Source: a virus. From it: 32,124 nt of DNA. Under the pieces are notes generated by a model. The model was given only the letters and a program-made list of their open reading frames with translations, searched no databases and had not been told where the DNA came from. Both the position numbers and the translations under genes were made by a program. The DNA lies in the IMG/VR virus record IMGVR_UViG_3300045115_000289, positions 1 through 32,124 of that record; one strand, written 5' to 3'. Shown here in pieces: positions 1-30,908 of the stretch (positions are counted from its first letter, which is position 1; each line of letters begins with the position of its first letter).

Positions 1-486
1 TCAATTGTTGGTGTTTTCATTATTACCCTTTGCTATACCCGCTATTTTAGTCGGGTCTACGCTGTTTGTTATATCTCTGTAAACCGCCAGCCATTTTATT
101 AACCAGTCAGGAACATTTACGCCTGCGGCTTTAACATTTTCCAGTATTGACAAATTTTCAGAAGCGATAAAATAGACACATACAACACCGCGAATGACAG
201 GCGGTATACTGTCAGCGCCAAATACGTCAATTGCACCTGTAGCTACAGCTCTGTCAAATTGCGCCGCAACAACAATAACCGCCAGAATTGAAACTTTCCT
301 TAAACCACCAATAAACGCCGTATGTGCTTTTAAGTCTCTGTTAACAAAGGCTTTAATGTACCCTGTTACAATGTCTATTAAAATAGCTATACAAAGCGTC
401 TGGAAAAGGACATCAAACCCGCCAAAAATAGCAGCGGCAACACCTGTTACTGGCGGAATAATCTGTAGTAGAAAAGTGTGTTTCAT
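1..486 (-). CDS. Phage holin, toxin-secretion/phage-lysis holin family
   Basis: A 161-residue membrane protein predicted to form the lesion that lets the endolysin reach the cell wall. Hydrophobic stretches lie near residues 5-25, 28-47, 64-80 and 95-115. The segment LIDIVTGYIKAF followed by GGLRKVSILAVIVVAAQFD matches the Asp-x-x-Thr-Gly and Gly-Leu-x-Lys pattern of the holin family that includes TcdE/Cph1-like holins (Phage_holin_4_1). The C-terminal ~30 residues are polar. The stop codon is at the window edge (1-3), so the gene is complete. It is the last gene seen in the leftward late operon, directly after the tail-tip genes, which fits a lysis function. An endolysin would be expected further left. 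Confidence 0.85.
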   Translation of the reverse strand: MKHTFLLQIIPPVTGVAAAIFGGFDVLFQTLCIAILIDIVTGYIKAFVNRDLKAHTAFIGGLRKVSILAVIVVAAQFDRAVATGAIDVFGADSIPPVIRGVVCVYFIASENLSILENVKAAGVNVPDWLIKWLAVYRDITNSVDPTKIAGIAKGNNENTNN

Positions 487-14759: not shown

Positions 14760-14830
14760 AGCCGCAGGCAGGAATTGAACCCGCAACGGAAGTTTACAAA
14801 ACATCTGCTTTACCATTAAGCTACAGCGGC
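14760..14830 (-). tRNA. Phage-encoded tRNA-Thr(UGU)
   Basis: The minus strand folds into a 71-base cloverleaf: acceptor GCCGCTG/CTGCGGC, D arm GCTT AATGGTA AAGC, anticodon arm GATGT TTTGTAA ACTTC with anticodon TGT after U33, a four-base variable loop, and T arm GCGGG TTCAATT CCTGC. There is one T-T mismatch in the acceptor stem and one in the anticodon stem. CCA is not encoded. It lies just upstream of the HNH gene on the same strand and would help decode ACA/ACG codons in late genes. Confidence 0.85.
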
Positions 14831-15342: not shown

Positions 15343-15371
15343 TTGACAGAGTATCAATGTAATACTATTAA
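15343..15371 (+). promoter_or_regulatory. Promoter candidate TTGACA-N17-TATTAA
   Basis: A consensus -35 TTGACA (15343-15348) lies 17 bases from TATTAA (15366-15371). Transcription would start at about 15378, placing the first duplicated hairpin at the very 5' end of the RNA, with no protein gene on this strand for nearly 1 kb. Confidence 0.4.
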
Positions 15372-15372
15372 C

Positions 15373-15418
15373 TATTCTTTCAAACCTCAGTAAAGAGGTT
15401 TGAAAGATAACTTATATA
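15373..15418 (+). repeat. Duplicated hairpin unit, copy A (46 bases)
   Basis: The stem CTTTCAAACCTC (15377-15388) pairs perfectly with GAGGTTTGAAAG (15395-15406) around loop AGTAAA, then GATAACTTATATA. Copy B at 15458-15503 has the same flanks. Orientation is arbitrary because the unit is palindromic apart from its tail. Confidence 0.85.
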
Positions 15419-15457
15419 ACTTATGTAGTTACTGTATTTAATAACTATCTGCATACC

Positions 15458-15503
15458 TATTCTTTCAAATCTCTTTAGAAAGATTTGAAAGATAACTTAT
15501 ATA
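15458..15503 (+). repeat. Duplicated hairpin unit, copy B (46 bases)
   Basis: The stem TCTTTCAAATCT (15461-15472) pairs with AGATTTGAAAGA (15481-15492) around an 8-base loop, followed by the same GATAACTTATATA tail as copy A. Relative to copy A one C-G stem pair has become T-A with both sides changed, so pairing is preserved. Confidence 0.85.
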
Positions 15504-15514
15504 GTTATTAATTA

Positions 15515-15536
15515 ATACCCTTCATACTCTTAGATG
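15515..15536 (+). repeat. 22-base perfect inverted repeat, left copy
   Basis: A 22-base sequence starting ATACCCTTCATACTCTTAG. Its exact reverse complement occurs at 15726-15747. The pair encloses 189 bases. Confidence 0.9.
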
Positions 15537-15725: not shown

Positions 15726-15747
15726 CATCTAAGAGTATGAAGGGTAT
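15726..15747 (-). repeat. 22-base perfect inverted repeat, right copy
   Basis: Exact reverse complement of 15515-15536, ending three bases before the stop codon of the YqaE/Pmp3-like gene. Confidence 0.9.
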
Positions 15748-15750
15748 GTT

Positions 15751-15957
15751 TTAGTAACGCGGGTAATTCTGTTTGTTTATTTCCTTCTTAATTTTCCTGA
15801 CAGTAGCATCATTGTTACAAATAACCAGCGCCGCTATTGCGCCAGGTATCCAGCCTAACACGGTTAGAATAATAACAAGAATGATGTTACCAGCTCCTTT
15901 GTTCCAAACCGCCAGAGGCGGCAACAAACAGCATAGCAATACCTGCATACAACTCAT
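15751..15957 (-). CDS. YqaE/Pmp3-family small membrane protein
   Basis: A 68-residue proteolipid-like protein with two membrane helices. The segment LLCCLLPPLAVWNKGAG (residues ~7-23) and LTVLGWIPGAIAALVI (~31-46) match the family hallmark LLPPL-V and LT-LG-IPG-IHA. The usual His after the IPG motif is replaced by Ala. Known relatives are stress-induced membrane proteins affecting membrane potential and salt tolerance. RBS AAAGG lies seven bases before the ATG. It is read leftward together with the Arc-type regulator upstream, so it is probably expressed in the lysogen. A lysogenic conversion or membrane-protection role is inference. Confidence 0.85.
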   Translation of the reverse strand: MSCMQVLLCCLLPPLAVWNKGAGNIILVIILTVLGWIPGAIAALVICNNDATVRKIKKEINKQNYPRY

Positions 15958-16043: not shown

Positions 16044-16220
16044 TTATTTACTCCGCCGCTTTTGTTTGTCTTCTCTGGCGTCTAGTGCTTCTTCTAACAA
16101 TACAATTATTTCGGAGTTCTTGCTCCGCTTGTTTTTCTCAGCTTCTTTTTCAATTCTTTCTGAAACTTCATGCGGCATTCGTAAAGTTGTTTTTACTTCG
16201 TCGTCGGTTGGTTTTTCCAT
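16044..16220 (-). CDS. Arc-type ribbon-helix-helix transcriptional regulator
   Basis: A 58-residue reading frame on the minus strand. The N-terminal strand VKTTLRMPHEVSERI (residues 9-23) followed by EKEAEKNKRSKNSEIIVLL (24-42) is the ribbon-helix-helix pattern of Arc/MetJ-like repressors (TLR-P-EL---I---A----RS-N-EI---L). The tail is highly charged (DAREDKQKRRSK). It diverges from the early operon, and two TAGTACTA palindromes one helical turn apart lie 33-51 bases before its start, well suited to a dimer-of-dimers RHH operator. It may be the lytic-lysogeny or early-gene repressor, since no CI-type repressor is seen here. Confidence 0.85.
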   Translation of the reverse strand: MEKPTDDEVKTTLRMPHEVSERIEKEAEKNKRSKNSEIIVLLEEALDAREDKQKRRSK

Positions 16221-16252
16221 TGTTTTCTTAACCCTTATTTTTGATTACATAC

Positions 16253-16271
16253 TAGTACTATTTTAGTACTA
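16253..16271. promoter_or_regulatory. Paired TAGTACTA operators for the RHH regulator (predicted)
   Basis: Two perfect 8-bp palindromes TAGTACTA at 16253-16260 and 16264-16271 have centres 11 bp apart, one turn of B-DNA. This geometry is typical of Arc-type repressors binding as adjacent dimers. The pair sits in the divergent control region between the regulator and the early promoter. Confidence 0.65.
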
Positions 16272-16278
16272 CAAAAGC

Positions 16279-16307
16279 TTGTTTTGCCACTTATATGGTG
16301 GCATAAT
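16279..16307 (+). promoter_or_regulatory. Early promoter with palindrome in the spacer
   Basis: TTGTTT (16279-16284), a 17-base spacer, and CATAAT (16302-16307). The spacer and the first two bases of the -10 are covered by the inverted repeat TGCCACTTATATGGTGGCA (16285-16303), a likely operator for a second regulator. It drives the gene at 16356. Confidence 0.6.
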
Positions 16308-16355
16308 AGTATCATACTGACCTTATATTGACACTACAGAAACGGAGGTAACTAC

Positions 16356-21305: not shown

Positions 21306-21824
21306 ATGGCTAAAATTGCATTTGTCGGTAAACAAAAATCTGGTAAATCCACGCTGGCGGCGCAGTTAGCGCCGTCTCTTAATGCTACGGTGGTTAGCTT
21401 TGCACAACCGTTAAAAGACGGTTTACGAATTATGGGAATTGAAGTTGACGGCTATAACAAAGACAGGCAGGCATTACAAGAATTCGCCGCCAGTTTTCGA
21501 CAACGCAACCCTAACCACTGGATTGACTTACTAGAAAAACGTAATGACTTTGATATTAAGTTTGGCAGCTTGATTATTGATGATATGCGTTTTCTTAACG
21601 AGATGTCATGGGCTAAATCAAAGGGGTTCTTAATTGTTAAGTTGGAAGTTTCCCCAGAAACCCAACTAGCCAGAGGCGCAAGCGGCGATTTAAGCCACGC
21701 CAGCGAAATTGACCTGGACATGTTACCTGACAGTGTTTTTGACCTTGTACTACACGAAAATACAACAGTCAGTCAGCGGGTTTACGCCGTTTTACAACTA
21801 ACTAAAGAGGCTAAATATGTTTGA
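21306..21824 (+). CDS. Deoxynucleoside monophosphate kinase
   Basis: A 172-residue P-loop kinase starting MAKIAFVGKQKSGKSTLAAQ (Walker A at residues 8-16). The following ATVVSFAQPLKDGLRIMGIE matches the dNMP-binding region of T4 gp1-like kinases, and GSLIIDDMRFLNEMSWAKSK (residues ~79-100) with the Asp-Asp-Met-Arg motif is characteristic. The LID-like end (PETQLARGASGD, HASEIDLDML) completes the fold. It phosphorylates dNMPs from host DNA or synthesis for phage replication. It lies beside the polymerase and overlaps the next gene by 8 bases. Confidence 0.85.
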   Translation: MAKIAFVGKQKSGKSTLAAQLAPSLNATVVSFAQPLKDGLRIMGIEVDGYNKDRQALQEFAASFRQRNPNHWIDLLEKRNDFDIKFGSLIIDDMRFLNEMSWAKSKGFLIVKLEVSPETQLARGASGDLSHASEIDLDMLPDSVFDLVLHENTTVSQRVYAVLQLTKEAKYV

Positions 21825-22581
21825 TTTTTCCGAAATAAAAGGCCAAGAACACGCTAAACGCGCCGTTGAAATAGCCGCCGCTGGCAACCATAACATAATT
21901 TTGACAGGCAACGCAGGCAACGGTAAAACCACTTTAGCCATGTCTGGCGCTGGTTTGGTTGCGCCAGACCTTAACCAAATTACTGCTATAACCCCTATAA
22001 GCGAAATAGACGACTATGAACACGCAGTCAGGAACATTAAAGACAAGCGGGTTATTTTAATAGACGACTTGCATCTTATTCCAGATAAAATACTTGACTT
22101 TTTAAGCTGCTATTTGCCTCTATACGCTGGTTGGGTCATTGCAACCGCCGCTAGTTGTGACTGCGGCAACGCAGGCAGCTATAGCCGCCAGTGTACTTGT
22201 ACAGAGCCAGAAAGACGCCATTTTAACAACCGCCTGCGGCGCGTGAACCGTTGGTTTTCTATGGAAGTGGTATTACCGGAAATAGTGTTTTACAAGCTGG
22301 TTGACGCTAAACAAGGCGAAACAACCGAAATTATCTCTAAACGTGTTGACACGGTTTTATTGCGGCGAAAATTCAACCAGAACTTGGCGGCACTGGTTGC
22401 AAACCTACACGCTGACGCTGAAAAACTACTAAAACAGGCTACAAACCAAATGGCGTTAAGCGCCAGGTCTTTTAATAATACCCTGGCGATTGCTAAGACT
22501 ATTTCTTACCTGTCAAATTCAGACACTATAACAGCGCCGTTTTTAGCAGAGGCTATACAGTATAGAAATAAGGAAATTTAG
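21817..22581 (+). CDS. Short ComM/YifB-type AAA+ ATPase (branch migration)
   Basis: A 254-residue protein beginning MFDFSEIKGQEHAKRAVEIA. This is the start of the Mg-chelatase-like ATPase domain of ComM, so the usual N-terminal Lon-protease-like domain (~200 residues) is absent. Walker A GNAGNGKTT (31-39), Walker B VILIDDLH (79-86, second acidic Asp), a Cys cluster CDCG...CTC (114, 116, 126, 128) as in ComM, and the C-terminal LSARSFNNTLAIAKTI with AIQYR (246-250) follow. ComM is a hexameric helicase that drives branch migration in recombination. It overlaps the dNMP kinase gene and precedes the polymerase. In this phage a recombination or replication restart role fits. Confidence 0.82.
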   Translation: MFDFSEIKGQEHAKRAVEIAAAGNHNIILTGNAGNGKTTLAMSGAGLVAPDLNQITAITPISEIDDYEHAVRNIKDKRVILIDDLHLIPDKILDFLSCYLPLYAGWVIATAASCDCGNAGSYSRQCTCTEPERRHFNNRLRRVNRWFSMEVVLPEIVFYKLVDAKQGETTEIISKRVDTVLLRRKFNQNLAALVANLHADAEKLLKQATNQMALSARSFNNTLAIAKTISYLSNSDTITAPFLAEAIQYRNKEI

Positions 22582-29462: not shown

Positions 29463-30503
29463 TTATATACCTAAAAACTTAGTTAGCGCCGCTTCTGTCT
29501 GTTTGTCGTTTTCTGCTAACAAATGTGTGTATACCTTCAAAGTTACAGACGGGTTAGAGTGGCCTAAACGGAGTTGCGCCGCCTTAACACTGACGCCAGC
29601 GGCGGCTAAAATGGAAGTATGCACATGGCGCAGACCATGAATTGAAATATACTTAACACCCGCGCCTTTACAGGCAGTAATAAAACAGCGCCGCAGGCTT
29701 GACCTTGTAGGCGGGTTATCGTTTTCATACCTGAAAATGAACCCGCTGGCGCTGGTTGGCAACTCCGTCAGCTTCTTTAGTGCTAGCTCTGGTAAAACTA
29801 CAAACCTGACGCTACTGGCGTTTTTAGGCGTCTGTATAACAAATTTACCGCCGCTTAACTCCGCCAAACTCCGCCTAATGTACACGCCGTCGTTGGTTAT
29901 ATCGCTGGTTTTTAGCGCCAGTAATTCACCTAAGCGGCAACCAGACAGCAACGCTACAAGGAATAAACTATTCCATCCGCCTTTATTAGCACTGGTGTAA
30001 ACTAGAAACGCCTGTATTTCGGCTTTAGTCCAGACGTCTTTGATAACCGCGTTATTCTTAGGCTTGTCAACCCTGGCGGCGGCGTTTGTGTCAACTATCT
30101 GCCATTCAACCGCAACCTGTAACAACCTGCGCAGTACAACATAGACATACTGTACTGACCTGTCTGACAGTTTCTTCTGTCTGGCGGCGGCTATGACAGA
30201 AACAACGTCAAGCGGTTTAACATCTTTGACAGGCTTTAGAGTTCCTAAGATAGATAGTATGTGCCTGTCAAGTGTTTGTCTGTAACTTTCTTCTGTCTTA
30301 GGTTTTAGGTTGGCAGATAGCAACCAGTTTCTAGCCAGGTCAACCAGCGTTGACGCCTCTGGCGCTGGCGGCGAAGTGTTTGTAAGCTGGCGGAGTATTA
30401 ACTCCGCCTCTGTAATGCTTTTAGCGTATTTTTGAACCCGTTTTCCATCAATGGTTAGTCTGACAGAGTATAACCCGTCTTTACGCATGCTAATATTTTT
30501 CAT
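29463..30503 (-). CDS. int: Tyrosine integrase
   Basis: A 346-residue phage integrase. The frame extends upstream to 30653, but that part reads the tRNA complement (REDLNLRPPEPH), so ATG 30503 (start MKNISMRKDGLYSVRLTIDG) is chosen. An N-terminal AP2-like arm-binding region (residues ~1-40) and SAM-like core-binding domain (~50-145) precede the catalytic domain: Arg190 (LLSGCRLGELLALK), Lys227 (QTPKN), His289-x-x-Arg292 (HGLRHVH), His315 (LGHSNP) and Tyr325 (KVYTHLL), all present. It catalyses integration at the tRNA-Pro 3' end, just 58 bases from its start, and lies convergent to the early operon. Confidence 0.95.
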   Translation of the reverse strand: MKNISMRKDGLYSVRLTIDGKRVQKYAKSITEAELILRQLTNTSPPAPEASTLVDLARNWLLSANLKPKTEESYRQTLDRHILSILGTLKPVKDVKPLDVVSVIAAARQKKLSDRSVQYVYVVLRRLLQVAVEWQIVDTNAAARVDKPKNNAVIKDVWTKAEIQAFLVYTSANKGGWNSLFLVALLSGCRLGELLALKTSDITNDGVYIRRSLAELSGGKFVIQTPKNASSVRFVVLPELALKKLTELPTSASGFIFRYENDNPPTRSSLRRCFITACKGAGVKYISIHGLRHVHTSILAAAGVSVKAAQLRLGHSNPSVTLKVYTHLLAENDKQTEAALTKFLGI

Positions 30504-30560
30504 AAGCTGCCTCTGGTGTATGGTTAATAGCCGCTGGTGTAGTTTTGAGGCAGGCCATGA

Positions 30561-30602
30561 ATGGGGTTCAGGTGGTCGGAGGTTCAAATCCTCTCGCCCC
30601 GA
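30561..30602 (+). other. attR: 3' half of tRNA-Pro(GGG)
   Basis: Reads as a tRNA from the anticodon loop to the discriminator: loop ATGGGGT (30561-30567; anticodon GGG), stem TCAGG, variable TGGTC, T arm GGAGG TTCAAAT CCTCT (30578-30594), acceptor CGCCCCG and A73. No matching 5' half (CGGGGCG) exists upstream; phage DNA is there instead. The crossover probably lies within the anticodon loop or downstream. Host DNA follows, so this is the right attachment site. Confidence 0.88.
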
Positions 30603-30908
30603 TTTTTCCCTCACATATCCGGATAAACCCATACCGGTAAATTCCAGACACATTTAACTTATGCTGAATATAGCCTGTTATTGAGGTATTCCTTCAGATT
30701 ATTGTATTTGAATGATTTCCTGATATATTCCCTTTAGCTTGCCTTTTGCCCATTCTTAAGATAAATGTTATAGACCTCGTAAGGTAAAATAAGTAGAATA
30801 TAAATATAAAGTATTTTTTATATGTCTCTGAGTCGAATCCTGGACCTATTGTTTACTCGTTGAATCGTCTTTGTCCTTTCGATGCAACATAGATAGAGTT
30901 AATTTTTT
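30603..30908. other. Host intergenic region (306 bases)
   Basis: AT-rich host DNA with no convincing gene. T5 after the tRNA end may serve as part of a terminator. No strong -35/-10 pair is evident before the downstream response regulator; AT-rich runs near 30788-30820 are candidate promoter sequence. Contains GAGTC/GAATC in TGAGTCGAATCC (30830-30841 region). Confidence 0.6.

Follow-up and report, generated by a model that had tools for sequence, protein, structure and literature searches.

A short Arc-type RHH gene in a prophage piece lies downstream of a putative operator pair of 8-bp palindromes spaced by 11 bp

The RHH repressor Arc binds as a tetramer (a dimer of dimers), which fills two adjacent major grooves of its operator via Gln9, Asn11 and Arg13 (PMC12645479). 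RHH antitoxins, such as RelB and the FitA/VapB-like proteins, repress their own genes through paired palindromic half-sites at a fixed spacing, and cooperative autorepression by RelB requires this spacing (PMC2812701). A similar mode of autorepression is predicted for the locus described here, a short RHH gene within a viral DNA stretch of 32,124 bases (the window). The nearest phage counterparts, Jimmer2 gp64 and Bob gp30, are single-domain RHH proteins of 56-62 aa, and two 8-bp palindromes 11 bp apart are likewise located upstream of their genes, in a divergent intergenic region. The palindromic word differs, however (TAGTACTA in the window versus TGACGTCA in the two phages), as does the DNA-reading strand (KTTLR versus KRFTLR), and the two phages have additional single sites spread over the intergenic region and HTH regulator genes in the same genome. 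The P22 proteins Arc and Mnt belong to the same family and share strand positions 9, 11 and 13 with the window protein, although the alignment covers approximately 36-40 core residues and, unlike those of P22, the half-sites in the window are perfect 8-bp palindromes. An antirepressor gene, for which P22 Arc and Mnt are the point of comparison, was not present among the window genes scanned.

The window corresponds to the whole of IMG/VR record IMGVR_UViG_3300045115_000289 and represents a prophage piece. The coordinates of the features are collected in Table 1. A leftward structural block extends from approximately 14.7 kb to position 1 and encodes terminase, portal, protease, capsid and tail proteins as well as a holin. 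A rightward early block (16.3-29.4 kb) encodes resolvase-like, ComM-like ATPase, DNA polymerase A, Dam and other methylase, primase-helicase and exonuclease-like proteins. It is followed by the integrase gene, beyond which lies a host gene for an EAL response regulator. The record opens precisely with the holin stop codon, so a gene border is probably where it was cut; the left-hand end of the prophage is not included. The closest phage relatives were only 50% identical at best when searched by terminase, and none were found by integrase. A cyanobacterial host had been guessed, but the search with the EAL protein gave no close host and did not bear the guess out. Directly downstream of the RHH gene, after a gap of 86 bp, a gene of the same orientation encodes a phage-borne proteolipid of the Pmp3/YqaE type and is a possible operon partner.

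Table 1. Position, strand and supporting evidence of the features of the window.
Feature	Position	Strand	Evidence or remark
Holin gene	1-486		First base of the record is in the holin stop codon
Pmp3/YqaE-like small membrane protein	15751-15957	-	Pfam PF01679, E 3.7e-10
Arc-family RHH protein, 58 aa	16044-16220	-	Pfam PF03869, E 1.4e-11
Putative operator half-site 1, perfect 8-bp palindrome TAGTACTA	16253-16260		Pair statistics
-10-like TAAAAT of the RHH gene	16260-16265	-	Consensus scan only; weak -35 upstream
Putative operator half-site 2, perfect 8-bp palindrome TAGTACTA	16264-16271		Pair statistics
Promoter-like elements of the divergent early operon	16279-16312	+	Consensus scan only; TTGTTT-17-CATAAT or TTGCCA-17-TAGTAT
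Inverted repeat TGCCAC-N7-GTGGCA	16285-16303		Noted in the preliminary description; not above chance
First gene of the divergent early operon, 193 aa	16356-16937	+	Relatives in 18 viral contigs
Tyrosine integrase	29463-30653	-	

The preliminary description of this DNA had proposed a small Arc-type protein at this place, and the profile search bore this out: residues 12-47 of the 58-aa ORF matched the Pfam Arc family, scoring 44.5 bits where the cut-off is 20.4. The protein also matched Arc-like PHROG families and could be aligned to PDB chains of Arc, Mnt and AmrZ. According to the alignment to Arc, the DNA-reading strand is V9-K10-T11-T12-L13-R14, with K10, T12 and R14 at the places of Arc Gln9, Asn11 and Arg13. 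The AlphaFold2 model of the monomer, built from two sequences, consisted of helices only and had no strand, an element that takes shape only on dimerization.

The same description had placed two perfect palindromes one helical turn apart in front of the gene. Both are exact copies of TAGTACTA, with 11 bp from centre to centre, and they lie 32-51 bp upstream of the RHH gene; the 32-kb window holds no further copy. The word alone is not significant, as approximately one occurrence is expected by chance per 32 kb (mean 0.81). The arrangement is rarer. Nowhere else in the window do two identical 8-bp palindromes fall within 40 bp of each other (0.2 such pairs expected), and when the 220 bp in front of the RHH gene were shuffled 40,000 times, a perfect pair at 11-bp spacing arose once. 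Alternatively, the pair could have no function and represent a repeat that arose by chance, or a simple tandem of AT-rich sequence, a reading to which the chance frequency of the word lends itself. TAGTACTAN3TAGTACTA also occurs in 53 viral contigs, none of which (0/53) has an RHH gene near it, and in two of them the pair is part of an 11-bp tandem repeat. The shuffling result and a position that matches RHH-specific geometry argue against this explanation, which we consider highly improbable.

This geometry was evaluated in the DNA upstream of 41 short RHH genes, which the Arc profile or similarity had identified in phages, viral contigs and genomes. Pairs were counted when both members were 8-bp palindromes with at least 7 of 8 positions paired, summed over both copies, and at most one difference between the copies. 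Near-identical pairs at a spacing of 11 were present at 10 of the 41 loci, in comparison to 0.16 expected (0.34 under a looser, two-difference rule), and ten such loci were reached in none of 200 shuffles. Spacings of 8-10 and 12-30 stayed near chance, with no other peak. Approximately 172 kb of the same loci contained 13 such pairs in all, ten of which immediately precede an RHH gene. The pair reads TGACGTCA-AAT-AGACGTCA in Brevibacillus phage Jimmer2 and CGACGTCA-TCA-TGACGTCA in Paenibacillus phage Bob; other pairs at 11 bp among the sampled loci were built from TGATATCA, TGAATTCA and, at antitoxin-like loci, TGCATGCA. The ten positive loci are not all independent, as they include three phage loci with TGACGTCA and three antitoxin-like loci. 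The majority of the sampled RHH genes had no 11-bp pair, and approximately 40 further RHH loci, mostly of a cellular Bacillota subfamily, yielded no new one. The grammar thus belongs to a subset of RHH genes, the one in the window included.

No relative sharing the word TAGTACTA was found. The 11-bp pair was absent from the sole viral contig with a match to the window RHH protein (L002). ORF22 of Edwardsiella phage GF-2 has an identical VKTTLR strand, yet TAGTACTA is absent upstream of it; support for the word itself is therefore confined to its geometry and position. The window and GF-2 have a 10-bp word in common (ATGGTGGCAT). Its candidacy for the true RHH site was set aside, because GF-2 has a second, AmrZ-like RHH protein that may own it.

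An 11-bp repeat is also a feature of some LexA boxes. Prophages are commonly under SOS control, and the pair could be read as a LexA box of the host, since GTAC-N7-GTAC resembles the alpha-proteobacterial GTTC-N7-GTTC and TAGTAC resembles cyanobacterial LexA half-sites. The alpha-proteobacterial direct repeat GTTCN7GTTC has the same 11-bp spacing as the TAGTACTA pair (PMC3091678), but GTTC differs from GTAC. In the cyanobacterial/Bacillus-type form (RGTACNNNDGTWC), the half-sites are 8 bp apart rather than 11, and the window contains no match to it. A spacing of 11 bp between perfect 8-bp palindromes is, moreover, what RHH genes show, and we regard the LexA reading as very unlikely. The reading of the protein as a type II antitoxin was rejected. 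In contrast to RHH antitoxins, the protein has no toxin-binding tail (11 residues follow the core) and no adjoining toxin gene, the neighbouring Pmp3-like gene not being a known toxin.

Taken together, the protein family, the geometry and the comparative enrichment at 11 bp argue well for an RHH regulator with a putative operator pair, as first described. We estimate a probability of about 0.8 that the TAGTACTA pair is the cognate cooperative operator of the Arc-type RHH protein and serves its negative autoregulation. The direct observations are the ORF and its family, the pair of sites, and the recurrence of their geometry in front of related genes; binding, both promoters and the effect on the early operon are predicted from the sequence of this locus. 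The 58-aa protein would act as an Arc-type repressor, with the two-stranded sheet of one dimer reading one TAGTACTA and two dimers placed next to each other on the same face of the DNA at a distance of 11 bp. Occupation of the operator would cover the RHH gene's own promoter, as the candidate -10 element (TAAAAT) sits between the two palindromes and overlaps both. The autoregulated leftward unit would be short, comprising the RHH gene and perhaps the Pmp3-like gene. The promoter-like elements of the divergent early operon start at 16279 or 16284, approximately 8-13 bp from the pair, so that the same complex probably tunes early transcription as well, either by repression or by hand-over. All these promoter-like elements are weak consensus matches, and the region contains seven such sites against 6.5 expected. 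As a local autoregulator, the RHH system is ordinary phage gene control.

The preliminary description had gone further, suggesting an unconventional lysogeny switch built on the RHH protein, with a second palindrome in the spacer of the early promoter. That inverted repeat does exist, but it is at chance level: when this region was shuffled 2000 times, an inverted repeat as good arose 579 times (29%). It does not recur elsewhere in the window, and its candidacy as the operator of a second regulator was rejected on both grounds. According to this proposal, the RHH protein would be the lysogeny repressor that shuts the early promoter in the prophage from the TAGTACTA operator and the spacer palindrome. 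The RHH gene is divergent from the early operon, a place where repressor genes often sit. Furthermore, no CI-like gene was visible among the scanned genes of the 32 kb, as had been stated; since the record ends at the holin gene, this holds for the scanned 32 kb and not for the whole prophage, whose left end is missing. A novel repressor among the early genes is also possible, as several of them belong to no known family. Against an RHH lysogeny repressor, the spacer palindrome is unlike TAGTACTA in sequence, and instead of the multiple operators at the early promoter or promoters by which a lysogeny repressor is judged, the 32-kb record has a single TAGTACTA operator, on the side of the intergenic region nearer to the RHH gene. 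HTH, XRE or CI-type regulator genes are annotated in addition to the same RHH type in the temperate phages Jimmer2, Abouo, phiC2, Davies and Bob, i.e., in all five (5/5) phages with this RHH type and an annotated regulatory region, and also in Dulem virus 31. The annotated regulators in like phages and the unique operator make an RHH switch unlikely, though possible, and the proposal went unsupported; we consider the RHH protein an improbable lysogeny repressor. Its strongest form, a phage lacking a helix-turn-helix repressor in which the 58-aa RHH protein alone maintains lysogeny from one cooperative operator by the early promoter, seems very improbable.

Of more general use is the readable operator grammar of short phage-type RHH repressors, namely 8-bp palindromes at 11 bp, perhaps with a simple code by which one strand residue goes with the central bases. 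Such a grammar would make the operators of unannotated tiny phage repressors predictable from sequence and cheaply testable. The possible code was examined in the phage-type RHH proteins whose residues at Arc positions 11 and 13 are T and R. Arginine at position 9 went with TGACGTCA and a central CG (Jimmer2, Bob, L163 and phiC2), and glutamine with TGAATTCA and a central AT (L197 and L198). Alanine, valine or proline went with TGATATCA or TGAYRTCA-like words (L153, L196, L164, L224 and L228), the central bases being mostly TA, TG or CA. The combination seen in the window, a protein with K, T and R and the word TAGTACTA, had no counterpart in this comparison. Three fresh plasmid loci gave a mixed outcome: one fitted (L284), one had only TGACATCA, a weak site, and one had no sites. 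This residue-to-central-base pattern emerged post hoc from the data and is a lead rather than a result.

Several observations were made at the compared loci. The trend between position 9 and the central bases of TGANNTCA was seen upstream of the RHH genes at L143, L144, L163, L225, L196, L197, L198 and L224; in the 3-5-kb loci for which the code was examined, most TGANNTCA words are no more than 150 bp upstream of that gene. In a Ligilactobacillus salivarius plasmid (L284, 1209-3165), five short RHH genes form a run of mixed orientation, and TGACGTCA sites lie between the first two. In the Faecalibacterium phages Pioen and FP_Taranis (L226/L227), a short Arc-like gene is located approximately 0.9 kb from a reverse transcriptase gene, and in FP_Taranis the gene immediately before it is annotated as a DGR target.

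The window itself contains further elements. Within an AT-rich, gene-free stretch (15.0-15.75 kb), two 50-nt direct repeats (15369-15503) are 86% identical and 85 bp apart, and each contains the inverted repeat CTTTCAAACCTC ... GAGGTTTGAAAG. They had no Rfam match and could be a replication origin or a structured RNA. In the same stretch, a 33-nt inverted repeat (15504-15536 and 15726-15758, 88% complementary) flanks 189 bp. A phage-borne tRNA-Thr gene (anticodon TGT, 14760-14830) lies between an HNH gene and the gene-free stretch. In the early operon, the ComM/Mg-chelatase-like AAA protein (21817-22581) has its family domains only in part. Finally, positions 30560-30603 resemble the 3' end of a tRNA gene and are probably the right attachment site; as they fall within the listed integrase ORF, the true start of the integrase would be further in.
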